Source: Cytophagales bacterium (GTDB lineage: Bacteria > Bacteroidota > Bacteroidia > Cytophagales > Thermoflexibacteraceae). From it: a stretch of 59,267 nt of DNA. The stretch spans positions 1 to 59,267 of the forward strand of contig JAAFKA010000025.1 of the NCBI GenBank assembly GCA_013299115.1, in the 5' to 3' direction. This document shows, piece by piece, positions 5,089 to 59,267 of the stretch (positions are counted from its first letter, which is position 1; every line of letters begins with the position of its first letter). The position numbers and the translations under genes are program-made. The notes below the pieces were generated by a model. The model had not been told where the DNA came from. It did no database searches and saw nothing but the letters and a program-made list of their open reading frames with translations.

Positions 5089-5199
5089 AGTGCTTTTGGT
5101 TTCTCAACACCGAAGGTTTTAACATAGTGCTTTGGGTTTCTTAAAACCGAAAGTTTTAACGTAGTGCTTTTGGTTTCTTAAAACCGAAAGTTTTAACAC
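5089..5199. repeat. Three tandem 37-bp repeats in the sufB leader
   Basis: Units start at 5089, 5126 and 5163 with AGTGCTTT. Each contains a GGTTTCTTAAAACC-type dyad (the first variant is GGTTTCTCAACACC) followed by GAAAGTTTTAAC. They fill the space up to 11 nt before the sufB ATG. A related GGTTTCTCAAAACC palindrome lies at 36164-36203. Confidence 0.85.
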
Positions 5200-11139: not shown

Positions 11140-14100
11140 ATGGACAGCATACAAAAACTACAAGTAGAAATCAGTTTTTTTTCGGAGGCATTGTACCCAA
11201 CCTTTGAGGAAAAATTAATGACTATGCTCAACAACATCTTGTTGCCTGAAATTGAAAAGATAATGGAGCAAGCCCTACCTCCACAAAAATTATTGCGACT
11301 CAACGAACTAATCATAGATTTACAACCTATTGATTATGAAGACTTTGAAAATAAATTTGCTCAACAGTTTATAGAAAAACTAACCGATGCTTTGCGGAGT
11401 GCAGTAGCCCATGCCCAGCCTACTACTTTGCCTTTGCCCTCCTCCCCTACCCTACTGCAAACCCAAACAGACAACATCGCCACTTTGTTGCACCCCAATC
11501 AAGCTGCTCTTGATACTTTGTTGTATTTTTTAGATTATGGTGTGTTGCCTTGGTGGGAAAATACCTCAACTTTTATGGGCATAGACCAATTAATTGAAAA
11601 GATAGCCAAAGAAAACCCTGTCCAATTAAGGCAAAAAATTTGGCAAAATTATCAAAATCATACATTTATAAAAAGGTTATTGACCCAAGCAAATGAGGAA
11701 GTTATTAGCAATTTATTGTTAGCACCAACAAGCAGCCAAACACCTGAAAAATTACAAGAAATTACACAACATCTTATCAAAAACTCCGCTGTAAATAACA
11801 AAGGAACAACTGAAAATTATTTGCAATTTTTGGCTACTTACTTCAAAACAGCACCACAAAAAACAGATTTTCGAAACAAAATACTTTTACAACTTGCTGA
11901 AAAACAATTAATTAGTTTAGTTCAATTCATACAACCCATAGAAGCTCCTTTTATCATTCGTTATGCTCATGACTTGCAACACACCCACAGCCAAAGACCT
12001 TTTACACCTGCCAATCAACCCACTTTTAGACAGGCTATGTGGGAATTTATTTTTACTTATTTGGTAGAAGAAAAAAGCACTGTATTTAATCGTAAGTTGT
12101 TCATTGCCAATAGTATCAAACAATTAGCTGCTCGGTTTAACCGTAGCTACCAAGAATTATTGGCTGCTTTAACTTCGGTGGCTTTGACTGTTCAGAAAAG
12201 TTTGAAATTAAAAACTTTATTACCTACTATTTTGCAAGAATTACAAGCTGATTTATTGCCTACTGCCCTGCAAAATACAAAGCAAAACAACAACATTTCT
12301 TATTTGCAAACAGCCCAAACTTCGCTACAATGGCAAGTCTGGAAACCTGTTTACGACACCTTGCCCGACTCGCCATTACACAAATTATTAGACGACCCGC
12401 AACAGCACATAGTTCAGGTCTTGCTTGCTACTGCCTTGACTTCCAGCACTTTGTCTGCCGAATGGCTTGCACAATTCAGGAAAACGTGGCAACAACTCAT
12501 TGCTACCTATCCTGCTGAAACGACAAAAGTCATTCGCAGATTGGGTAGTCAAGCAATGTATAGACAGAGATTGGTGCAACGCTGGACATTAAGGCAAATT
12601 CGAAATACCTTGCAACTCGTGGAACCACAAGAGGCAGGTTTTATTTGGCACTATGCCCAAGATTTACAAACTATTCAACAACAAAAAAATGCTATCAAGA
12701 GCAATAACAAAGACTTTTATCAAGCAAAATGGGAGCTAATTTTTGCCTATTTATTGGCAGACAGAGGGTCGGCTTTCAACCGCAAGTCGTTTATAAAAAC
12801 TACTTTGCAAGGTTTGGCTCGCCGTTTCAACACAAATTATGAAATTTTATTGACTTTTTTTATAAAAATATTACAAGATAAAACTCAATACGATACACAA
12901 TTTTTACAACTTGGCAATTTGCTTTTGCTCTTATTCAAAGATTTGCAAAAAGAGCAAATTGCTATTCAAAAACCAGCCATAAACCTTCAAATTACTATTC
13001 AAATCCAAACACAACGCCATTTTCTTTACCACTTGTTGCGTTATGGTGTATTGCCCTATTCCAATCAAGATTTAATGCCCAGCCCTAACATTTATCAAAG
13101 AAATGTTAGTGCTAACGAAGTTAAAGAATTACGGCACGAAAAAAATCAATTTATTGATTATCAGTCTATTGTAAAAAATTATATCAATTTGACTACGGCT
13201 GTTTATTGGCAAAACCCCAAAGTTTTTGTGCCTGTTTTGCTTGCCCTAAAAAACTCACCTCGCAGTTGGGAAAAGTTGGTAGTTGAATTGCCTGCTACAC
13301 TTTTGCAGCAAGTAGTGGCAAGCCTCCCCCCTACTCTACTGCTTGAAAATCAAGCAATTGCGAATTTGTTAATTCCGAAATTACCAAGTCCTTCGCCTTT
13401 CTTTGCCAACTTATTAACTGTTTATTTGCAACAAGCACAGCATAGCAATTTTCAGCATTTTTATGTTGTACCTTCTCTACTCAAAAAGATATGGTTAGAT
13501 TTTTATGGAGATTTTATTCAACGCTGGCTCGATAAATTGCCCGCAATGGAAGGAGAAAAAATAGAAAAAACTATACAAATATTACAAAAAGAATTATTCG
13601 AATTTTCTACAACTAAGCAAATAATCAAAACAGAGAATTTTGTTAATGACAAACCAAATAAACAACAAATAATAGATTGGAAAGATTGGCAACAGCAAAG
13701 CAACTTGCTAAAAAAACAGGCTTATTTGCCCCTCAACCAACCTGCTTTGTGGGCTGCTTACTTGCAATTTAGCAAACAATTTGCCTTGCTTTTTTCTCAC
13801 TTGAAACCTTATTTGTCTGACAACTCGAAGTTGTCAGACAAATTACATAGCAAACCTTATTTGTCGGACAACTCGAAGTTGTCTGACAATTTACGTAGCA
13901 AACCTTATTTGTCCGACAACTCGAAGTTGTCTGACAAATACTTATCGGACAACTTTGAGTTGTCGGACAAATTTCAGAAGTTGCGTACTAAACAAACTAA
14001 ACGACTTTTTGAATTTTTGCAGCATAGCTTTACTTTACTTGCTACACAGCACCAAAATTTGACAACGGCACAAAAGGAATTTACAAAAAAATTATTGCTT

Positions 14101-15429
14101 TTTTTATCAAAAAATTACAAGCAAGATACAGCCTACTTTTTGACTACTTTTACTCAACAATTTGCCCCTTCGCCTCACTTGACTGCATTTTTGGCAACCT
14201 TGCCCAAAGAGGTTTATGCTGCTGATAAACAACTTGTTACTGCAACAACTTTGGAAGTTTTACAAAGTTATTTTGCCTTTGAAAAAAGTAAATTTATTAT
14301 AAAAAATTACACAAATGCTACCTTAGAAAAAATGTTAGTTGGCTTGCTTACCACGCCGCCCTCGCCTTTGCTTTTTGAACTGTTGCCCACACGTAGTATG
14401 CGAAATGCTACTGTTACCTATTTTACAGACTTTGCAACTACCACATGGCACAGGGCAGCTTATTTGTATAATTCTCACCAATACAGGCAAATTTGGCAGC
14501 ATACTCAACTATTTTGGCGTGTTTTTCCTTTGGTGTCGGCAGATTATTTGCCCCAACTAAGAGTTTTGCGAACTCCACAAATGCAAATAGCTTTTGTTTG
14601 GTATGTGCTGGCGGGTGGCTATGCAGGTAGCCTTTCTGCAAAAGAATTGCTAAATGAATGGTTGGGATTTGTCAATTTACATACGAAAATAGATAAAAAA
14701 TTACTCCAAACTATTTTATTTTCTCCGCTAACAAAATTGGCAAGTAACTTGCCCACTACTACGAATTTGCAACAAACTCTTCGCAATTTTTCTTTGCCTA
14801 TAGAACAAAATACGAAACAAGTAACTAATCAAAACCTTGCTTTGCAAGCCAAACAAAAAAATATAAAAAAAGAGCAAAAACAGGAAAATAATACATACAA
14901 AATACCTGAAAGTATTTATGTAGCTAATGCAGGTTTGGTGCTGTTAAGCCCTTATTTGGTGGTGGTGTTCAGCCGTTTGGGTTGGATGGACAAAGGGCAG
15001 TGGAAAACCGAAGAAACTTTGCCACTACCCCAACAAAAAGCCTTGCATCTGTTGCAATATTTGGCTTTTGAGGGCAAAAATCCCGCAGAATACGACTTGG
15101 CATTGAATAAATTGCTTTGTGGCTTGCCTTTGGGAGAAGTAGCCGAAAAAGAAATTGAACTTACCACTGCTGAGCAAGAAACGGCAAATGGCTTGCTATC
15201 CGCTGTAATTAAACAGTGGGTGGCGATGCAAAATTCTTCCTTGCTCAACTTTCGGGTGTCTTTTTTGCAACGTACAGGCAGACTCACTTTTCACGAAGAC
15301 CACTGGGAACTGCACGTAGAACAACGAGCTTATGATGTGCTGTTAGACCGTCTGCCTTGGGCTTTTCATTTGGTTAAGTTGGCGTGGATGCCGTTGCCTT
15401 TGTTTGTCTATTGGCGAAATAAGGCTTAA
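11140..15429 (+). CDS. Contractile injection system tape-measure protein
   Basis: 1429 residues. Both ends fit the CIS tape-measure family, which sets tube length in phage-tail-like injection machines. The N-terminus (1-90) has KLQVEISFFSEA and LRLNELIIDLQPIDYEDF. The C-terminus (about 1260-1429) has NAGLVLLSPYLVVVFSRLGW, NKLLCGLPLGE, SLLNFRVSFLQRTGRL and DVLLDRLPWAFHLVKLAWM. The middle contains a duplicated module: residues about 262-345 and 490-570 share the pattern HDLQ or QDLQ, then AMWEFIF or AKWELIF, then FNRK. Residues about 889-943 are encoded by tandem palindromic repeats (13804-13970). No sheath, tube, baseplate or ATPase gene is nearby, so it is an orphan here; the rest of the machine may be elsewhere or lost. 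Confidence 0.88.
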   Translation: MDSIQKLQVEISFFSEALYPTFEEKLMTMLNNILLPEIEKIMEQALPPQKLLRLNELIIDLQPIDYEDFENKFAQQFIEKLTDALRSAVAHAQPTTLPLPSSPTLLQTQTDNIATLLHPNQAALDTLLYFLDYGVLPWWENTSTFMGIDQLIEKIAKENPVQLRQKIWQNYQNHTFIKRLLTQANEEVISNLLLAPTSSQTPEKLQEITQHLIKNSAVNNKGTTENYLQFLATYFKTAPQKTDFRNKILLQLAEKQLISLVQFIQPIEAPFIIRYAHDLQHTHSQRPFTPANQPTFRQAMWEFIFTYLVEEKSTVFNRKLFIANSIKQLAARFNRSYQELLAALTSVALTVQKSLKLKTLLPTILQELQADLLPTALQNTKQNNNISYLQTAQTSLQWQVWKPVYDTLPDSPLHKLLDDPQQHIVQVLLATALTSSTLSAEWLAQFRKTWQQLIATYPAETTKVIRRLGSQAMYRQRLVQRWTLRQIRNTLQLVEPQEAGFIWHYAQDLQTIQQQKNAIKSNNKDFYQAKWELIFAYLLADRGSAFNRKSFIKTTLQGLARRFNTNYEILLTFFIKILQDKTQYDTQFLQLGNLLLLLFKDLQKEQIAIQKPAINLQITIQIQTQRHFLYHLLRYGVLPYSNQDLMPSPNIYQRNVSANEVKELRHEKNQFIDYQSIVKNYINLTTAVYWQNPKVFVPVLLALKNSPRSWEKLVVELPATLLQQVVASLPPTLLLENQAIANLLIPKLPSPSPFFANLLTVYLQQAQHSNFQHFYVVPSLLKKIWLDFYGDFIQRWLDKLPAMEGEKIEKTIQILQKELFEFSTTKQIIKTENFVNDKPNKQQIIDWKDWQQQSNLLKKQAYLPLNQPALWAAYLQFSKQFALLFSHLKPYLSDNSKLSDKLHSKPYLSDNSKLSDNLRSKPYLSDNSKLSDKYLSDNFELSDKFQKLRTKQTKRLFEFLQHSFTLLATQHQNLTTAQKEFTKKLLLFLSKNYKQDTAYFLTTFTQQFAPSPHLTAFLATLPKEVYAADKQLVTATTLEVLQSYFAFEKSKFIIKNYTNATLEKMLVGLLTTPPSPLLFELLPTRSMRNATVTYFTDFATTTWHRAAYLYNSHQYRQIWQHTQLFWRVFPLVSADYLPQLRVLRTPQMQIAFVWYVLAGGYAGSLSAKELLNEWLGFVNLHTKIDKKLLQTILFSPLTKLASNLPTTTNLQQTLRNFSLPIEQNTKQVTNQNLALQAKQKNIKKEQKQENNTYKIPESIYVANAGLVLLSPYLVVVFSRLGWMDKGQWKTEETLPLPQQKALHLLQYLAFEGKNPAEYDLALNKLLCGLPLGEVAEKEIELTTAEQETANGLLSAVIKQWVAMQNSSLLNFRVSFLQRTGRLTFHEDHWELHVEQRAYDVLLDRLPWAFHLVKLAWMPLPLFVYWRNKA
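13804..13970. repeat. Tandem palindromic repeats inside the tape-measure gene
   Basis: Units start at 13804, 13852 and 13900 (period 48 bp, 16 codons) and end in a variant fourth palindrome. Each carries TTGTCTGACAACT and its complement around CGA (13-bp arms). They are translated as repeats of KPYLSDNSKLSDKLHS. Near-identical DNA between units points to recent expansion. Confidence 0.9.
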
Positions 15430-26077: not shown

Positions 26078-26146
26078 GGTGTTAAAAAATAGTGTAAAGA
26101 TGTCATCTTTTAGAAAGATGACATCTTTACACTATTTTTTAACACC
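26078..26146. repeat. Palindrome with perfect 33-bp arms upstream of the LytS-type kinase
   Basis: Arms 26078-26110 and 26114-26146 are exact complements with a 3-nt loop. The inner part is the AAAGATGTCATCTTT core; the outer part (GGTGTTAAAAAATAGTGT) is specific to this locus. It ends 18 nt before the kinase ATG, so it lies in the leader or promoter and may influence expression. Confidence 0.9.
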
Positions 26147-37155: not shown

Positions 37156-37448
37156 TATTCGTGTCATTGCTTTGCCCTGAAACAATACCAGCGGCGACCA
37201 AAATTTGCTTCTGCAATAGCATACAATTCAACACCATAAACCAACCTTTCTGCCTCGTAATGGTATGCAAGAAGAAAATAAAAAGACGAAGTAAGTTAAT
37301 TGTGTAGATTGTTATGGTGGCAAAAGTAGGCAAATAGCTGGCAATTACAATTTTGCAAACATTTTTTTTAAATAACTAAAATTCAGTTTTGAGGTTATCA
37401 AGGTTTGCAAAAAAATTTGTTATTTGCAAACTACTTTTACTTAATCTT
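37156..37448. other. Gap upstream of deoC with a possible coding remnant
   Basis: Apart from the palindrome, no gene is seen. On the minus strand from about 37285 to a stop at 37164 there is a 37-codon open stretch without ATG; it reads AYHYEAERLVYGVELYAIAE and then ANFGRRWYCFRAKQ, which looks protein-like and may be a decayed fragment. Its family is not recognised. Confidence 0.25.
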
Positions 37449-38138
37449 ATGACCAAACCACCAATTCATTCAAAGCCCAGCATAGCTGCTGCCATCGAAC
37501 ATACCAATCTCCATCCGTTGATAACCTCTGATGAGATAGAAAAATTGGTAGCCGAAGCCCAACAATACCAATTTGTTGGGGTTTGTGTGCCGCCATTTTG
37601 GGTCAAAAAAGCCAAACGTGATATTGGAAATTTTCCGATTCATTTGGCTACGGTCATTGGTTTTCCTTTGGCTTACCAACGGACAGAAGCTAAACTGCAC
37701 GAAATTTCTTTGGCTTTGCAAGACGGGGCAGATGAGTTGGATATGGTACTCAACCTTTCTTGTATCAAAACAGGCACGCATTTTTGGGCGAAGGCAGAGG
37801 TGGCAAGGTGTGCAAAACTATGCCATGAGGCAGAGGCTGTGCTAAAAGTGATTATAGAAACGGCTTATTTGAGTGAGGAGGAAATAGTGTTTTGTAGCAA
37901 ACTTTGCCAAGATGCAGGGGCAGATTATGTAAAAACCTCCACTGGTTTTGCCCCCGCAGGTGCAAAGGTAGAGCATATTCGCCTCATGCGTAGTGTGCTT
38001 GCTCCCGAAGTAGGCATTAAAGCATCAGGTGGCATACGCACTTTTGAGCAAGCAGCAGCCATGTTGGCAGCAGGAGCAGACAGAATAGGCACGTCTTCGG
38101 GGATTAAAATTTTGGAAGAGGAGAAAAATAATTCTTAA
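37449..38138 (+). CDS. deoC: Deoxyribose-phosphate aldolase
   Basis: 229 residues. It cleaves 2-deoxyribose 5-phosphate to acetaldehyde and glyceraldehyde 3-phosphate in deoxynucleoside salvage. The Schiff-base lysine is K162 in YVKTSTGFAPAGA; D99 in DELDMVLN and K191 in IKASGGIRT complete the active site. The ATG at 37449 is used in place of 37389, since the extra 20 residues (RFAKKFVICKLL) do not belong to the family. It is a single gene. An 8-bp tandem repeat begins at its stop codon. Confidence 0.96.
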   Translation: MTKPPIHSKPSIAAAIEHTNLHPLITSDEIEKLVAEAQQYQFVGVCVPPFWVKKAKRDIGNFPIHLATVIGFPLAYQRTEAKLHEISLALQDGADELDMVLNLSCIKTGTHFWAKAEVARCAKLCHEAEAVLKVIIETAYLSEEEIVFCSKLCQDAGADYVKTSTGFAPAGAKVEHIRLMRSVLAPEVGIKASGGIRTFEQAAAMLAAGADRIGTSSGIKILEEEKNNS

Positions 38139-38178
38139 TTCTTAATTCTTAATTCTTAATTCTTAATTCTTAATTATT
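38131..38178. repeat. 8-bp tandem repeat ATTCTTAA
   Basis: About six copies of ATTCTTAA start within the last codons of deoC (its stop TAA is part of the first copy) and fill the space to 38178. Copy-number change would not alter the protein. Confidence 0.9.
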
Positions 38179-38212: not shown

Positions 38213-38698
38213 ATGAAAACTACTTATTTTTCTAAAATTATGGCTTGTTTGGCTGTTGCTTTTTTTGTTTTTGCTTGCAGCCAAACCAATACGCCCACAC
38301 CTACCACAACGCCAGTTACGACTGCCGAATTTGTGGCTCAGGACACAGATTTCAAGGATTTTAGAAAGTGGGCAGTCGTGGCTACACTTGCTCAGGCTTT
38401 GTCGGCAGATGGCAGGGCACACACTGATGCTGCCCGAACTATTTGGATAAACAAAAATGTAAGTAGAGGTACTACTAACGAATATCCAAACGGAACTATT
38501 TTTGTGAAAGAGGTGCAAGGTAGCTACGGCATCGTAGGCATGGCAAAAAGAGGCGGTACTTTTAACACCACACACAATGGCTGGGAGTGGTTTAAGTTAG
38601 ACAGTGATGGCAAAATTCTTAATCGTAGCAGTTCAAATACTTGTAATTCTTGCCATGCCAAAGTAAAAAATTTGGATTATGCCTTCACAAAACCGTAA
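38213..38698 (+). CDS. Cytochrome P460-family lipoprotein
   Basis: 161 residues. Lipobox FFVFAC gives lipidated C22. The mature part has the P460-type fold features DFRKWAVVAT, WINKNVSRGTTNEYPNGTIFVKE and a C-terminal haem c motif CNSCH (144-148), with HNGWEWFKLD before it. It is a periplasmic or outer-membrane-anchored monohaem cytochrome. P460 proteins oxidise hydroxylamine or bind NO, but many members in heterotrophs have no known substrate. The stop codon lies inside the left arm of a 37-bp-arm palindrome. Confidence 0.88.
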   Translation: MKTTYFSKIMACLAVAFFVFACSQTNTPTPTTTPVTTAEFVAQDTDFKDFRKWAVVATLAQALSADGRAHTDAARTIWINKNVSRGTTNEYPNGTIFVKEVQGSYGIVGMAKRGGTFNTTHNGWEWFKLDSDGKILNRSSSNTCNSCHAKVKNLDYAFTKP

Positions 38699-38769
38699 TT
38701 TTCAATTTATTTGTTACAGATGACATCTTTTTAAAAGATGTCATCTGTAACAAATAAATTGAAAATTAC
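38695..38769. repeat. Palindrome with perfect 37-bp arms
   Basis: Arms 38695-38731 and 38733-38769 around a single T; the inner core is CAGATGACATCTTTT and the outer 20 or so bp (AATTTTCAATTTATTTGTTA) are specific to this site. The left arm includes the stop codon of the P460 gene; the element ends 20 nt before the next ATG. Confidence 0.95.
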
Positions 38770-42228: not shown

Positions 42229-42354
42229 AGATTTAAGTAAGTAATTTGGAGAGCAAGGTAAAATAAATTTGCATAAGACCCAAAATTTTATTGCTTTACA
42301 ATCACAAACAAAGAAACAGTTGAAAGTTACAGCTTTGGATTATTTTGTAAATTG

Positions 42355-42388
42355 TTGGCAGCTATCTTACTTATTTTTATTATCTTTG
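42355..42388 (+). promoter_or_regulatory. Promoter of the Rpn-type nuclease gene
   Basis: TTG (42355-42357), 23-nt spacer, TATCTTTG (42381-42388), with the ATG at 42415. The box lies between two possible starts and favours 42415 over an ATG at 42352. Confidence 0.5.
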
Positions 42389-42414
42389 CTATACGAATAA
42401 AATTTTCAAGACCT

Positions 42415-43338
42415 ATGAAATTTGCAGACATCAAAAATGACGTTGCTTTTCACAAAATCTTTGGCAGTGAAGACCGCAAAGAAAGTCTGATTTCTTTCCT
42501 CAATGCGACTTTGCAGTTTGAAGGACAGCAACGAATTAAGGAAGTGGCTATTGTGAATCCCTACCAACTGCCCAAACTCAAAAGTGGCAAGACAACCATT
42601 GTGGACGTGAAAGCAACCGACCAAACAGGTAGGTCGTATATTGTAGAAATGCAAGTAGCCGACCAAGATGGTTTTGATAAACGAGTGTTGTATTATTTTG
42701 CAAAGGCATACAGCAACCAAATCAAACGTGGCGACCAATACCGCAAACTCAATCCTGTGTATTTCATCGGGATTTTAAACTTTGAATACACAGAAGGTAA
42801 AAACTTTATCAGTCGCAGCCAAATTGTAGATGTAGAAACAGGGGAACAAACTTTCAAAGACGTAGAATTTACGTTGATAGAATTGCCTAAATTCAAGAAA
42901 AAACTCAACAAATTGCAAAATCTGTTTGAAAAGTGGGTATATTTTATCAAAAATTCCGAAAATATGACCTTTATTCCCGAAGGCGTGGAAGACGAAGGAC
43001 TGAAATCTGCTTATGAGAATGCAAACCAATACATGTGGTCGCAAGCCGAACTCGATGCCTACGATGCCCTGTACATTCACGAGGAAGGACGAAGGGCTGC
43101 CATGGACAAGGCAATGCGGAAGGCAATGGAAGTAGGAAAAATTGAAGGGAAAATTGAAGGGAAAATTGAAGGGAAAATTGAAGGAAAAATTGAAGGAAAA
43201 ATTGAAGGAAAAATTGAAGGAAAAATTGAAATTGCCCGAAATGCAATTTTAGAAGGTGCAAGTGATACGTTTATTGTCAAAATTACAGGGTTAAGTTTGA
43301 CAGAAGTTCGAGCCTTACGGGAGAAAACTAAATTGTAA
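42415..43338 (+). CDS. Rpn-family PD-(D/E)XK nuclease / transposase-like protein
   Basis: 307 residues. It starts MKFADIKNDVAFHKIFGSED, the standard N-terminus of the Rpn/PDDEXK_2 family. The catalytic core is D64 (TIVDVKA) and E78-x-Q80 (RSYIVEMQV). These proteins are RecA-independent recombination-promoting DNases. The helical C-terminal part carries eight GKIE repeats (241-272) from a 12-bp tandem repeat, before a final ILEGASDTFIVKITGLS segment, which is also usual in the family. A second gene with the same first codons follows at 43369. Confidence 0.9.
   Translation: MKFADIKNDVAFHKIFGSEDRKESLISFLNATLQFEGQQRIKEVAIVNPYQLPKLKSGKTTIVDVKATDQTGRSYIVEMQVADQDGFDKRVLYYFAKAYSNQIKRGDQYRKLNPVYFIGILNFEYTEGKNFISRSQIVDVETGEQTFKDVEFTLIELPKFKKKLNKLQNLFEKWVYFIKNSENMTFIPEGVEDEGLKSAYENANQYMWSQAELDAYDALYIHEEGRRAAMDKAMRKAMEVGKIEGKIEGKIEGKIEGKIEGKIEGKIEGKIEIARNAILEGASDTFIVKITGLSLTEVRALREKTKL
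43135..43230 (+). repeat. 12-bp coding tandem repeat (GKIE)8
   Basis: Eight in-frame copies of GGAAAAATTGAA or GGGAAAATTGAA, first three linked by GGG codons and the later ones by GGA. It encodes a charged, probably helical linker and is a candidate for copy-number variation. Confidence 0.95.
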
Positions 43339-47212: not shown

Positions 47213-50200
47213 TTACCGAAAACTCCAATACCTCACATACTCCCAATTTTTTTCTACTAATTGCAAAGGCAAATAAGCCAAATATTCTTTGGCAGACAGC
47301 GAAGCAAAAAACAAATTATCGTCTGTCAAAAAAAGTTGCTTGCCCTTTGCCAAATCTGCAAAAGGTAAATTTTCGTGTAGAGTTTCAGCTTGATTATCAG
47401 GATTTTGCGGTAAATTTTGCAATAAATTTTGTTTGATTTTTTCTTTCAAATACCAATCCACCGTAGGCTGTTGCGTAGTGGGCAGTGCCTTGTTTTCTTT
47501 CCCTTGCGAAACTGTCCACGCATAATGTAGGTAGTGTTGCAACAATTTGACCCCTTCATTTTTCAGGTTTTCAGTTTGTAGTTGGTGAGGCAAAATACTT
47601 GCCACCACATAAATTTTTTGCTTTGCCCGCGTAATGGCTACATTCAACCTGTTTTGCCCTTTTTCCATGTTCAGCAGCCCAAACTGCATAGCCCAACGAC
47701 CCGATGCTGAAGGTGCATAACCCACCGAAAAAATAATAATATCTCTTTCATCACCTTGCACATTTTCTATATTTTTCACAAAAACCTCTGGTGCCAAAGC
47801 CAAACCCGACTCGTCTATGGTGTCTAAAATCAAGTTTTGTTGATGCACATTGAAAGTAATTACACCAATAGAAGTGCTGCCTTCGGCTTGCAATTTTTTT
47901 AGCAAAGCTACTACTTCCTTTGCCTCCACTTCGTTCTTATTTTTCTCCCAAACACCCTCCACTTTCAAATAATCTATGGCTGGTGTTGTACTTGCAAAGT
48001 CTTGACTATCAGGGATTAAACGCAAATGATTGTTATAAAAAATTTGATTAGAAAAAGCAATCAACGAATTGAAACGGCTGCGGTAATGCTCACGCAAGGC
48101 ATACACAGGCAAATAACGACTGCCCAAATCTAACAAGGACTCCACCTCCAAAGCCAGATGTTCCTCCTCATCTTGGTCTAAATTTTCCTCCCAACGAGGT
48201 CTATACAAGTCAAACGGGGCTAATTGTTGGCTGTCGCCTGCAATAACGGCTTGCTTGCCCCGATACAAAGCAGGAATTGCTTTTTCGGCATAGCACTGCG
48301 AAGCCTCATCAAAAATTACCAAATCGAACAAGGGCTGCAAGGCAAACAAAGTAGATGCCGTTTCGGGAGAAACCAACCAACAAGGTAGCAAATCAAAAAT
48401 CTCCGTTTCGAACTGCCCCAACAACTTACGCAAGGGAAACCAATGTCGTTTTTTGCTTACCTGATGTTTCAAATCTCGATAAGTTACTAAGTTACCTAAA
48501 CGATTGATAATGAGGGTTTTATAACTTCTCTCACGCAATTTTTGCAGCACAATATCCCTCGACAATTTGCGTTTTTCTATCACATTTTTTTGCAATAAAT
48601 TTTCCCACTGTTCCATTTTAAAACCAGACACAGCCCGCAAAATAGGAAAGTGATTTTGCAAATAAGCCAACCACGACTGCCGAATACTGCTGGCACAATA
48701 AGCAACTAATTTTTCATACTTTCCAATACTTTCCAAGTCTTTTAGACTTGGAAAGTTTTTTAACTTGATACTTTCCAAGTCTTTTAGACTTGGAAAGTTT
48801 TTTGACTTGATACTTTCCAAGTTTGATAAACTTGGAAAGTGTTTTTCAAAATATTTTTCTCCCTCTTTAACTAATTGATTTTGAACAGGTTGCCAATTTT
48901 TTTCTAATAAATCTATTTCGCAAAAAGTAGCAAAATTAGCACGCAACGAAGGTAGCAAGGCTTTGGTGAGCCAATTTGCCTCGTCTTTTTTGGCGAACAA
49001 AATTGCTAATTGTGCTGGCGACAAAAAAGACAACCACATTGCATAATTGGTTTCAAATTCCTCTAAACAAGCCACCAACTTTACCAACAATTCAGTAAAT
49101 GAAGCAAAAGTATAGTCGGCAAGAGGCACAGCACCAAAAATATTTTGGAGTTGCAGCCAAAGTTTTTTGTCTGCTAAGGCTTTGTCGTAGCAAGAAAACC
49201 AAAGCACAAAATCCTGTTTGTCAATGCTTTGCGGTATATTTTCCAACCAATCTATCTTGTCCACTGCCACCGCCAACTCCTCTACCGACAAAGCCAACAA
49301 CCACTGCTGCGAAACTAATTGGTTTTTAAAATCTTCTAAATTTTGCCTATTTTGTATCTTTTTTGCCAACAAAGCCAAATCATCAGGTGTAAAAAGCAAA
49401 TGGTGAACTGCTGCCAAAGCCTTTAATTTTTTCTTGTCTTTTGAAAACAAATTCCAATGCCAACGGTCAAAAAATTTAGTTTGGGCTTGTTGGTAAGTGG
49501 CAATGATGGTCTGCCAAGTTTCCCAACTTACCTCATTTATCCGATACCTCGAAGGTATCGGATAAGTCGTTGAATTGTCCTCATTTATCCGATACCTCGA
49601 AGGTATCGGATAAGTCGTTGAATTTTCCTCATTTATCCGATACCTCGAAGGTATCGGATAAGTCGTTGAATTGTCCTCATTTATCCGATACCTCGAAGGT
49701 ATCGGATAAATAGTTTCAGGAATATTTGCAATTCCTTCGGGTTGCTCAAAGCAAGCAAACAACTGTTGGCGAAGTTGAAACAACCAATCCAATTCTTTTT
49801 CGGTGTGGTTGCAAACTTTTTGGAAGTGCCTAAAATCCACTACTGTTTGCAATTTTTCGGCAAGCTGTTTAATGGCAGGTAATTGCTTTGCAAACTCAAA
49901 AAAATCATTCCATTGCAGTTTTTTGTGCAATAATTGGCTACTTTCTTGGGTGAGGTTTTGCATTTTTTGCACAACGGCAGGCAAAAGTTCGAGCAAAGGC
50001 TGCAAATCTTTGGGCTGATAGGCAGCAAAACTGTTGCGAAGTTGCCAAAACTCTGCTAATTCTTGCCCTGTTTTGGAGTCGGCGTGCTGCTGTTCGAAAT
50101 AATCCAAAACTTGTTGGTGATATTTTCCCCAAAAACCAACCTGCTGCAAAAATTGTTGGTGATGTTGCCAATGAAAGCAAGCCGTATGTTGTTCAATAGC

Positions 50201-51604
50201 AGGAACATAGCCAAAAGGTTGTTCAAAATCCGTAGTCAAATACAATTCCTTTGCACTGATGCCTGCCACCGAAGTATCGAACAAAGCCTGCTTGTATTGG
50301 GTAATTTGCAAAGCTGTTTCTGCAATTTCTCCACTCAACTGTTCAAATCTTTTGGAGGCATAAGCCGTATCAAAACTTTCATTTTCTTTTTGGTAAACCG
50401 CCAAATTTTCTATGTGCGTGAGAATTTGCTGAAAAATTTTTGCCCTATCTGCCTGTATGTCATGCACTAAGGCTGCAAAAGGAGCAAAGTTTTTTTCTGC
50501 CAGCCTTTGGTTTACTACGTCTAAGGCTGCTCTTTTTTGGCAAACCACCAACACTTTTTTGCCCTGTGTCAAATTATCTGCTATCAAATTGCAAATTAAC
50601 TGCGACTTCCCTGTGCCAGGAGGTCCCTGCACCACTGCGGACTTGCCCTGCTTTACGGCTTGCAAAGCCTGTTCCTGCGAAGCATCGAGGGCATAAGGAG
50701 CTACGAGGTTTTGCTCTTGTTGTTTTAAATTTTCCAAATCCAAAGAACTCAAACTTTCCAAGTCTTGAAGACTTGGAAAGTTTTGCAAATTTTCATTTAG
50801 CTTTCCACTCAATAATTCCTCCAAAGTCGGCAGGGCAGAGTCGGCAAGGAGTTGGTCGTAGTCGGGCATGAGATAAGAGTCTGCAAGGGGAAACACACCC
50901 AACACAGCTTCGGGCATGAGTTTGAGTTTGCCTGTTTGGTGCAGGAGGTCAAAATCCTTTTTGGTGTGGCTTTGAAAATAATGTAAGGTATTGGTAAAAA
51001 TTTCTTGATTAAAGTGCAAATCTATGGGACTATTTGCCAATAAATGGTACAAAGCCGTATGAAAAACTTGCACGTCTTGGCTACTTTCCTCAAAATCGTA
51101 GTCTAATAAGTCCGTAGGCAGTGGCACTTGATTGTAGTGCGTATAAGCCAATAAAAAAGTAGTATTCCAAATAATTGGCTGATTTTCAATGGTTTTCAAC
51201 AGCCATTGCTTATTTTCTATTGCCAAATTGACAGGAAAAAATAGCAAAGGGCATCTCACCAGCGTATCGTCTATCATTTTGCCCTGCACAAAAGGATAGC
51301 CTACATACAAGTTTTTTGCCCCTCTTTCCTCCTGAATAATTTGTGCAGTTCTATAAATTTTGTGTAAGGTATTTGCAATTTTGTTATTATTTTTATCTCT
51401 ACTATCCACCACTTCGCACAAAGGAATTTTCTTTTTGCGAGCCAATAGTTGCGTGATGAGGTGAAAAGAAGGTTGGTTTTGCACAAAATCCAAGTTGTGC
51501 AGGTCTAAAAAATACTGCTCTGCCAACCGCAACAAGAGCAAACTTTTGTTGCTGGTGCTAAGGTTGGTCAGTCGTTTTTGGTAAATTTTCAGTAGTTTTT
51601 GCAT
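47213..51604 (-). CDS. SF1-family helicase with DUF4011-like N-terminus
   Basis: 1463 residues. The N-terminus (about 1-130: KRLTNLSTSNKSLLLLRLAE, later KNLYVGYPFVQGKMIDDTLVRCP) resembles DUF4011-type helicases. SF1 motifs follow: Walker A QGPPGTGKSQLICN (about 331), Walker B LVIFDEASQC (about 1100), GDSQQLAPFDL (motif III), NVQGDERDIIIFS (motif V) and RLNVAITRAKQKIYV (motif VI, about 1320). It probably unwinds or translocates on DNA or RNA. Three translated palindrome arrays interrupt it (residues about 274-284, 631-691 and 921-959), all between motifs. The ATG lies 3 nt after the stop of the first nuclease-like gene, so they share a transcript. Confidence 0.9.
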   Translation of the reverse strand: MQKLLKIYQKRLTNLSTSNKSLLLLRLAEQYFLDLHNLDFVQNQPSFHLITQLLARKKKIPLCEVVDSRDKNNNKIANTLHKIYRTAQIIQEERGAKNLYVGYPFVQGKMIDDTLVRCPLLFFPVNLAIENKQWLLKTIENQPIIWNTTFLLAYTHYNQVPLPTDLLDYDFEESSQDVQVFHTALYHLLANSPIDLHFNQEIFTNTLHYFQSHTKKDFDLLHQTGKLKLMPEAVLGVFPLADSYLMPDYDQLLADSALPTLEELLSGKLNENLQNFPSLQDLESLSSLDLENLKQQEQNLVAPYALDASQEQALQAVKQGKSAVVQGPPGTGKSQLICNLIADNLTQGKKVLVVCQKRAALDVVNQRLAEKNFAPFAALVHDIQADRAKIFQQILTHIENLAVYQKENESFDTAYASKRFEQLSGEIAETALQITQYKQALFDTSVAGISAKELYLTTDFEQPFGYVPAIEQHTACFHWQHHQQFLQQVGFWGKYHQQVLDYFEQQHADSKTGQELAEFWQLRNSFAAYQPKDLQPLLELLPAVVQKMQNLTQESSQLLHKKLQWNDFFEFAKQLPAIKQLAEKLQTVVDFRHFQKVCNHTEKELDWLFQLRQQLFACFEQPEGIANIPETIYPIPSRYRINEDNSTTYPIPSRYRINEENSTTYPIPSRYRINEDNSTTYPIPSRYRINEVSWETWQTIIATYQQAQTKFFDRWHWNLFSKDKKKLKALAAVHHLLFTPDDLALLAKKIQNRQNLEDFKNQLVSQQWLLALSVEELAVAVDKIDWLENIPQSIDKQDFVLWFSCYDKALADKKLWLQLQNIFGAVPLADYTFASFTELLVKLVACLEEFETNYAMWLSFLSPAQLAILFAKKDEANWLTKALLPSLRANFATFCEIDLLEKNWQPVQNQLVKEGEKYFEKHFPSLSNLESIKSKNFPSLKDLESIKLKNFPSLKDLESIGKYEKLVAYCASSIRQSWLAYLQNHFPILRAVSGFKMEQWENLLQKNVIEKRKLSRDIVLQKLRERSYKTLIINRLGNLVTYRDLKHQVSKKRHWFPLRKLLGQFETEIFDLLPCWLVSPETASTLFALQPLFDLVIFDEASQCYAEKAIPALYRGKQAVIAGDSQQLAPFDLYRPRWEENLDQDEEEHLALEVESLLDLGSRYLPVYALREHYRSRFNSLIAFSNQIFYNNHLRLIPDSQDFASTTPAIDYLKVEGVWEKNKNEVEAKEVVALLKKLQAEGSTSIGVITFNVHQQNLILDTIDESGLALAPEVFVKNIENVQGDERDIIIFSVGYAPSASGRWAMQFGLLNMEKGQNRLNVAITRAKQKIYVVASILPHQLQTENLKNEGVKLLQHYLHYAWTVSQGKENKALPTTQQPTVDWYLKEKIKQNLLQNLPQNPDNQAETLHENLPFADLAKGKQLFLTDDNLFFASLSAKEYLAYLPLQLVEKNWEYVRYWSFR
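48728..48841. repeat. Three tandem 42-bp palindromic repeats in the helicase gene
   Basis: Units start at 48728, 48770 and 48812. Each has ACTTTCCAAGTCT and its complement around TTT (third unit varies: ACTTTCCAAGTTT, GAT). Translated on the minus strand as FPSLKDLESIKLKN. A single copy of the same element lies at 50752-50782. Confidence 0.93.
49531..49710. repeat. Four tandem 48-bp palindromic repeats in the helicase gene
   Basis: Units start at 49531, 49579, 49627 and 49675. Each has TTATCCGATACCT and its exact complement around CGA (13-bp arms) plus a 19-nt joint. Translated on the minus strand as TYPIPSRYRINEDNST. Confidence 0.95.
50752..50782. repeat. Single AACTTTCCAAG palindrome in the helicase gene
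   Basis: Perfect 15-bp arms (50752-50766 and 50768-50782) around one G. Same element as the array at 48728-48841; encodes FPSLQDLESL and nearby residues. Confidence 0.9.
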
Positions 51605-57564: not shown

Positions 57565-58995
57565 ATGCTAATTTTTATTTTTCATGCGGTTTTGGTGGCA
57601 AGTCTTGGCTATTTTTTGCACCGCCAACGGGTTGCCCAACCTTTGGGCAAGTTCTTTTTCGGGGGCTTGCTGCTCAAATGTGCCGCTGGTTTGGCTACTT
57701 TTTACGTAGTCAATCAATACGGTGGTGGGTTACACGACAGCCAAAATGCTTTTGCCGTAGGTTGTCGGTTAGCAAACAAATTGGTAGAAAATCCCCTCAA
57801 ATTTGGCATTTTTTTCATAGAACAAGAATGGCTGTATAACTTTGACGACTACCGCAACCATATTTATCAAGATTGGAATGTGCAAACCTTGTTTCTCTAC
57901 AAACTCACTGCTTTGTTTTGCCTCTCTGCCCAATCTAATTTTTACGCTGTCAATCTTTGGTTTTCTTTTGCAAGCTACTGCGGACTCTGGGCTTGTGCCA
58001 ATGCGTTGGCAAACAAATTTCCTACTTCGCAGTGGGCTGCGGTGGTGGCTTTTTTGTGCTTTCCTTCGGTCTTGGTCTGGAGTGCAGGCTTGCTGAAAGA
58101 AAGTTTGCTATGGGCTTTTGGTGGTTATTTGCTTAGTTTTTTGCTTGCATGGCAACCTTCCCAAAAAATAAAATCTTTGACTTGGCTTTGCTTGTCGTTG
58201 GCAAGTTTGGCACTTTTTCGCCTGAAATACTACTATTTTGCAGCTTTATTGCCTATGGCTGCGGTCTATGTAGTGGGCTGTTGGTTGGCTACTACCTCCT
58301 TTTTTCGCAAAAACTTTTTCGGTTTGTTTGTTTCTTTGGGCTTAGTCTTTGCGTTGGTGCTTGGTTTAGCAAGTTTTTTTCACCAAAATTTGGCATTAGA
58401 TTACTTTTTTGAGGGTTTAGTAGGCAATTATTATAACTTTGCCAATGCTTCGGATATAGACAATATCCAACATTTTCGATTTGTGCAGCCTTATTGGTGG
58501 TCGGTACTGTGCCAAATTCCCCAAGCCCTTTGGGGTGCTTTTTTCAATCCGCTGGGCTGGCAAAAAGGAGAAAGTTTGTTAAAAAATATGGCAGGCATAG
58601 AAAATGCAGGTTTGTTGTTGCTGTTGGTAGTGGCAAGTGGAGGGGCTGGTTGGCAGTGGGTAAAAAAAATAAAAAATTACCTCACCCCCAACCCCTCTCC
58701 TGCTGAGAGGGGAGATTTTAACTCTGCAAGGGCTTTAAGCCCTTGCGGAGTTGAATTGGGAATAAAAAACTATATTTTCAATCATTTTCCTACACTTTTG
58801 CTCATTACTTTGGGTATTGGTTATGTTTGTTTATTGGCAATTTTTATTACCTTCGCCTCACCCAACTTAGGGAGTTTGGCTCGGTATAAAGTCGGTTTTT
58901 TGCCTTTTGTGGTTTATGCGGGGTTGGCGGTTATCTGCCGTTGTTTTCGTTCAACCATTGGCAGGGTCTATCGACCACTGCCAAGGTTTCACTAA
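57565..58995 (+). CDS. Polytopic membrane protein, 3' end overwritten by repeats
   Basis: 476 residues with about nine or ten predicted membrane helices between 5 and 465. The periplasmic loop after TM2 has GGGLHDSQNAFAVGCRLANKL. The family is not recognised; the general layout resembles glycan polymerases or mannosyltransferase-like enzymes without a clear motif. Residues about 373-400 (LTPNPSPAERGDFNSARALS and following) are encoded by two palindromes inserted in frame. The last 16 or so residues (CFRSTIGRVYRPLPRFH) come from the start of a tandem palindromic array, so the original C-terminus is probably replaced. Confidence 0.7.
   Translation: MLIFIFHAVLVASLGYFLHRQRVAQPLGKFFFGGLLLKCAAGLATFYVVNQYGGGLHDSQNAFAVGCRLANKLVENPLKFGIFFIEQEWLYNFDDYRNHIYQDWNVQTLFLYKLTALFCLSAQSNFYAVNLWFSFASYCGLWACANALANKFPTSQWAAVVAFLCFPSVLVWSAGLLKESLLWAFGGYLLSFLLAWQPSQKIKSLTWLCLSLASLALFRLKYYYFAALLPMAAVYVVGCWLATTSFFRKNFFGLFVSLGLVFALVLGLASFFHQNLALDYFFEGLVGNYYNFANASDIDNIQHFRFVQPYWWSVLCQIPQALWGAFFNPLGWQKGESLLKNMAGIENAGLLLLLVVASGGAGWQWVKKIKNYLTPNPSPAERGDFNSARALSPCGVELGIKNYIFNHFPTLLLITLGIGYVCLLAIFITFASPNLGSLARYKVGFLPFVVYAGLAVICRCFRSTIGRVYRPLPRFH
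58691..58752. repeat. Two palindromes inside the membrane protein gene
   Basis: CCCCTCTC and GAGAGGGG (58692-58699 and 58705-58712); then arms 58720-58735 and 58737-58752 (AACTCTGCAAGGGCTT, one mismatch). The first is the same type as the CCCCTCTCC hairpin in the nested region at 23277-23299. Confidence 0.85.
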
Positions 58996-59267
58996 AACTT
59001 TGGCAGTGGCTTTTTTGCCCTGCCAATAGTTTCGTCATTTTCGTTCAACCATTGGCAGGGTCTATCGACCACTGCCAAGGTTTCACTAAAACTTTGGCAG
59101 TGGTCTTTTTCAGACCCTGCCAATAGTTTCATCATTTTCGTTCAACCATTGGCAGGGTCTATCGACCACTGCCAAGGTTTCACTAAAACTTTGGCAGTGG
59201 TCTTTTTCAGACCCTGCCAATAGTTTCATCATTTTCGTTCAACCATTGGCAGGGTCTATCGACCACT
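58948..59267. repeat. Tandem 94-97-bp palindromic repeats at the right window edge
   Basis: Copies start (CGTTCAACCATTGG) at 58948, 59042, 59139 and 59236; the last is cut by the window end. Each contains an outer dyad TTGGCAGGGTCT/AGACCCTGCCAA (in the first copy incomplete) and an inner dyad ACCACTGCCAA/TTGGCAGTGGT. The array overlaps the last codons of the membrane protein gene and continues beyond the window. Confidence 0.93.

Follow-up and report, generated by a model that had tools for sequence, protein, structure and literature searches.

REP-like hairpins repeated in frame within the tape-measure gene of a Cytophagales contractile injection system

Palindromic repeats in reading frames

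According to PMC3733652, REPs of the GTAG and CGTC super-families occur within ORFs of varied function, where dimers and clusters code for up to 82 residues. The hairpins that we describe here, from a Cytophagales bacterium (GCA_013299115.1), resemble these intragenic REPs, as that source portrays them, in being short palindromes that lie in ORFs of different functions and that are in some cases clustered. Canonical REPs carry a GT[AG]G or CGTC tag at the hairpin foot, whereas our hairpins are tagged in 0 of 65 cases (random expectation 1.7%) and are thus not canonical REPs. Such a tetranucleotide does lie within 20 nt of 10 of 15 intergenic family-2a copies vs 24% at random, copies that have a longer flank in common. 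A second account (PMC6006769) assigns one REP family to each RAYT, places in-frame REPs within subclass 2.4 RAYT genes, and describes untagged, atypical hairpins beside RAYT/TnpAREP genes of subclass 2.6, mostly in Bacteroidetes. As outlined there, subclass 2.6 is like our system in having a hairpin family per RAYT and no GT[AG]G tag. In motif comparison only, the YIHQNP of one RAYT of our genome (contig C11) fits the YIH[QN]NP given for this subclass, whereas its NHFH is a mismatch to NH[LIV]H; in addition, subclass 2.6 hairpins are termed weaker in that account, whereas ours are near-perfect.

Rickettsia palindromic elements, which are reported as in-frame palindromic inserts in many genes of one genome (PMC3733652; PMC10969869), were the parallel drawn by an initial annotation of this locus. 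The parallel holds insofar as the palindromes are comparably in frame, but by their published description these elements are ~150 bp long (PMC10969869) vs ~33 bp here, and hosts and sequences differ; REP hairpins with a cognate RAYT are the closer comparison. PARCELs, as presented in PMC2996958, are like our arrays in that they repeat in tandem and in frame and show dyad symmetry at the DNA level. They share a common 25-residue amphipathic motif, however, whereas our units encode 16 and 14 residues and members of one hairpin family are translated in either of two codon phases, and identity with PARCELs was rejected on these grounds. Within the parts of the literature searched, in-frame hairpin arrays of this Bacteroidota type were not found, though intragenic REPs are known. 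Relative to these sources as far as they extend, what is new is the untagged hairpin families, the several RAYT pairs in one genome and the tape-measure host gene; intragenic in-frame REPs are already published (PMC3733652).

Hairpin arrays of the tape-measure and helicase genes

The following features lie in the window, i.e., the whole stretch of 59,267 nt that was analysed (contig JAAFKA010000025.1). Hairpin families are named after the unit length of the helicase array in which they occur.

11140..15429, + strand: tape-measure gene of a contractile injection system, 1429 aa (PF19268 CIS_TMP, E 1.8e-97)
13804..13851, + strand: unit 1, 48 bp, with a perfect hairpin at 13811-13843 (15-bp arms, loop CGA)
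13852..13899, + strand: unit 2, 48 bp, one mismatch in the hairpin stem
13900..13947, + strand: unit 3, 48 bp, one mismatch in the hairpin stem
13942..13970, + strand: variant member of this hairpin family, following the third hairpin at 33 bp; TTG loop and two mismatches in the stem
47213..51604, - strand: DUF4011/AAA helicase gene, 1463 aa, with three in-frame hairpin sites
48726..48846, - strand: three 42-bp units of the helicase-42 family, the window's second (ACTTTCCAAGT...), helicase residues 922-959
49531..49711, - strand: four 48-bp units of the tape-measure hairpin family (TTATCCGATACCTCGAAGGTATCGGATAA), helicase residues 633-690, in the other codon phase
50751..50783, - strand: single in-frame hairpin of the helicase-42 family in the helicase gene
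58720..58752, + strand: in-ORF hairpin of the helicase-42 family (AACTCTGCAAGGG...)

The claim from which this work started, that three 48-bp units and a variant hairpin (13804-13970) sit in frame in a real tape-measure gene, was confirmed. CIS_TMP profile matches flank the array on both sides (11143-11796 and 13987-15414) in one open frame, and a profile search found this to be the only gene of the genome with such a match. The accompanying description of each unit as a 13-bp-arm hairpin with a CGA loop needs correction: only unit 1 is perfect (arms of 15 bp, CGA loop), units 2 and 3 are mismatched at one stem position each, and the variant has a TTG loop and two mismatches. Units 1 and 2 have 44 of 48 bases in common and each has 38 of 48 in common with unit 3 (TRF: period 48, 2.8 copies, score 237). 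In the protein the array corresponds to residues 889-946, which read KPYLSDNSKLSDKLHS, KPYLSDNSKLSDNLRS, KPYLSDNSKLSDKYLS and then DNFELSDKF. A chance repeat was rejected as the source of the array, as the window holds 29 short-loop palindromes of arm score ≥11 vs 0, 0, and 1 in three mononucleotide shuffles.

Residues 886-961 of the tape-measure protein matched the opposite strand of the 48-bp helicase array at 48% identity, the first sign that the two arrays are related. Spacings in the three arrays of the window (48, 48, and 33 bp; 48, 48, and 48 bp; 42 and 42 bp) are all multiples of three. Both helicase arrays are missing from the aligned orthologues of 14 other genomes (14/14), which represent empty sites, and in some relatives the second site is occupied by unrelated inserts. 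Near that same site, the helicases of two relatives (L058 in G009 and L062 in G011) have a different small hairpin, GTTGTC...GACAAC, with 10-bp arms. The helicase itself resembles the NCBIfam anti-phage models ProA (E 4.4e-143) and Hhe (E 2.5e-95) at scores far under their cut-offs. The 476-aa ORF that holds the hairpin at 58720..58752 had no Pfam match at E 1e-5.

Among 39 genomes, our own included, the tape-measure protein query matched five and PF19268 six. The tape-measure ORFs of the relatives span 1059-1549 codons, and the three that are full-length (in G003, G013, and G015) do not contain the array. Old, diverged repeats that lack a palindrome, which the initial annotation had named as one sign against its reading, were not what these orthologues hold, but their sequence around the array position is too diverged for an exact empty site. 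Searches of the genome-contig and viral-contig collections, from which records near our genome may be absent, returned no relatives of the protein, and no second genome with a tape-measure array appeared among the 39 genomes or in scans of these collections. Three matches to the tube-protein family PF06841 lie on contigs C1 and C13 of our genome and none beside the tape-measure gene on C18.

Hairpin families, RAYT genes and relatives

The same hairpin, for which the initial annotation had proposed a genome search, does occur elsewhere, in the four-unit helicase array and in a family of 30 members. The sample surveyed comprised 859 kb (the window plus 40 stretches, with seven short G006 contigs left out) and contained 217 palindromes of arm score ≥12, 42 of them in ORFs, which were defined as stop-to-stop frames of ≥150 codons, such that some “coding” cases (frames of 155-255 codons) may not be genes. 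In 82 of the hairpins the loop was 3 nt and the arms 12-18; as 27 of these lie in ORFs vs an ORF cover of 85%, they are rarer there than random placement would give, yet not absent. The same scan gave 24 hairpins (two in ORFs) in 400 kb of the same-genus G001, none in 140 kb of G004, and one, in an ORF, in 100 kb of G005. Clustering yielded two large families, one of 35 members (14 within ORFs) and one of 30 (12 within ORFs), plus smaller groups. The tape-measure and helicase-48 hairpins are members of the latter (family 2), which matches two overlapping patterns 66 and 60 times genome-wide and so has many dispersed copies.

The coding copies of family 2 are read in two codon phases (7/12 and 5/12), which indicates that the recurring thing is the DNA and not a peptide. 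The stems of family 2 differ by paired changes: 416 of 435 cells in 29 distinct rows are Watson–Crick, and pairing over 14 pairs reaches 95.6% vs ≤75.1% in 500 permutations, although, with rows picked as palindromes, this documents differences in stem sequence and the pairing level is not independent evidence of selection. Six of nine host ORFs put to Pfam found a match, including two Eco57I-type methylases, a Type ISP specificity protein, an Rhs-repeat protein and an FAD-linked oxidase, and three had none at E 1e-5. The array is therefore not, as initially supposed, peculiar to a length-setting protein: its family is arrayed in the helicase, and these families also reside in restriction-modification, Rhs-repeat and oxidase-domain ORFs and in a RAYT gene. 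Noncoding arrays have spacings of 50, 43.5-46 and also 63 bp (the last a multiple of three), and one in-ORF pair of hairpins, 40 bp apart, combines two different families rather than repeating one in tandem. Two Eco57I-type genes, probably paralogues, have one hairpin in common, bordered on each side by identical stretches of 16 bp (L022:3198-3232 and L026:14424-14458).

The NCBIfam RAYT model returned ten matches in the genome, all under the model cut-off, from which nine loci were inspected. At four of the nine, the RAYT gene has hairpins on both sides and each gene has its own type, vs 0.9% of random 1.4-kb windows that contain at least two hairpins of the two large families. The C28 RAYT is flanked by TTGTCCGACACCT hairpins of the tape-measure/helicase-48 type; one hairpin beside the gene (core TCCGATACCTCGAAGGTATCGGA) has 23 central bases in common with the helicase-48 hairpin, and the tape-measure hairpins (TTGTCNGACAACT) are one base pair different from the C28 type (ACCT). 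On C11 the flanking hairpins are TATCGGGTGGCT, one of which ends 3 bp beyond the gene. Those of C16 are ACTTTCCAAGT hairpins of the helicase-42 family, in tandem on both sides, with two further copies inside the reading frame of this RAYT gene; those of C74:79463 are AAACCTTATAAGG, of which four form a tandem array with a spacing of 63 bp. The other five loci (C24, C74:148622, C13, C34, and C56) were without these hairpin families; different inverted repeats occur on both sides at C24, on one side at C74:148622 and C13, and not at all at C34 and C56. A Pfam Y1_Tnp search found three genes, two of them IS200-type (C20 and C35). These two were rejected as movers, the palindrome nearest to C20 being of another family and C35 having one family-1 hairpin 1.2 kb away. 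The array hairpins thus have the marks of RAYT-linked, REP-like elements—a cognate RAYT flanked by the same family, and dispersed copies—with a putative role of the RAYT in binding and processing them, and they would work as RAYT-linked REPs do.

Across the 39 genomes, RAYT matches occur in 28 and the hairpin pattern in five (66 matches in our genome, 24 in G003 from the same bacterial family, four in G001, three in G009, and one in G002), and co-presence alone is thus of little weight. Farther afield, 52 stretches of named genomes contained a family 2 pattern; most came from Bacteroidota MAGs (Saprospiraceae, Cytophagales, and others) and one each from Calditrichaeota, Planctomycetota and Roseilinea, of which the Planctomycetota and Roseilinea matches were discarded as hairpins for falling under the hairpin threshold. 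Sixteen of the 53 matches in named genomes lie in frames of ≥100 codons, and at six of the 16 a stop codon lies on the edge of the hairpin. The pattern was absent from all 294 other genomes of a class sample that is made up of genomes from outside our genus and family. RAYT homologues are present in 16 of the 18 genomes reached via family 2 hairpins. Among 30 RAYT loci from these genomes, at least seven (L210, L215, L221, L227, L228, L230, and L239) have near hairpins on both sides that are not family 2, and seven have no hairpins.

Origin of the tape-measure array

Building on the observed hairpin family, its dispersal and in-frame residence, the empty sites of the helicase arrays and the flanking of RAYT genes, we consider it probable that the tape-measure array consists of RAYT-linked, REP-like hairpins that were inserted in frame, tandemly amplified and tolerated. 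Specifically, a 33-bp element of the C28 RAYT family (11 codons; arms of up to 15 bp, 3-nt loop) would have entered the tape-measure gene in frame, with a RAYT as the putative mover. The hairpin and ~15 bp of flank would then have been copied in tandem, slippage at the hairpin being the presumed cause; a unit length divisible by three, and the lack of a stop codon in the frame used, would have kept the reading frame open. The encoded peptide would most likely be a tolerated, neutral linker.

That the array is instead a selected length module, its units kept since each 16 residues alters the measured tube length, is very unlikely. Tape measures set tail length, the array lies in the only CIS_TMP gene of the genome, and the range of ORF lengths among relatives would suit such a role; it is opposed by the same-family array in the helicase and the hairpins in further unrelated ORFs, by the failure to see variation in unit number or a second genome with the array, and by a structure prediction too poor to use (AlphaFold, residues 820-1060 run from the one sequence, mean pLDDT 43). 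With same-family hairpins in several unrelated genes, a tolerated mobile passenger looks likelier than a length dial. It would likewise be a long shot to see in RAYT-driven arrays a mutable ruler, by which gain and loss of 16-residue units changes injection tube length within a population.

We regard as unlikely, too, an origin and spread of the hairpins that bypasses RAYTs (by template switching, gene conversion or another transposase), with RAYT genes merely frequent landing sites. The paired changes that separate the stems of one family are those expected from arm-to-arm correction, the Y1 genes of C20 and C35 belong to the IS200 type, and five of the nine RAYT loci are without these families, but four RAYT genes with a different hairpin type each, on both sides, are hard to reconcile with the scarcity of such clusters in random windows. 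Least credible is an assembly artefact, or a frame that is not a gene. Tandem arrays are prone to wrong copy numbers, but the units differ from each other (38-44 of 48 bases in common), a point against simple stutter, and one open frame has CIS_TMP matches on either side of the array.

Beyond this gene, the genome contains several untagged hairpin families, of which four lie next to a RAYT of their own, and many copies are translated. It is thus well suited to the study of how small mobile hairpins enter genes and leave them intact, and of whether hairpins of 33 bp (11 codons), with frames free of stop codons, are shaped for such entry.

A different kind of in-frame domain occurs on contig C11 (L094:10640-14992, - strand), where a MetH (methionine synthase) frame of 1450 aa includes, near its start (residues 282-390), a DUF559 nuclease-like domain, with peptides such as PLTPEGGT and PPKGEKG on either side. 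The genome has no other DUF559 match, and no short-loop palindromes were found at the borders of the domain. The window has further repeats of its own. A 97-bp tandem repeat (58944-59267, 3.4 copies) runs over the end of ORF 57565-58995 and has CCACTGCC...GGCAGTGG palindromes, three 37-bp tandem units with an inverted repeat lie between listed ORFs (5089-5198), eight 12-bp units (AGGAAAAATTGA) lie in ORF 42352-43338 (43134-43230), and a 7-bp repeat (TAATTCT, 6.7 copies; 38129-38175) spans the end of ORF 37389-38138. Long perfect palindromes with arms of 33 and 36 bp and a core of AAAGATG(T/A)CATCTTT stand at 26078-26146 and 38695-38769, and palindromes like these are found near the starts of G001 contigs.
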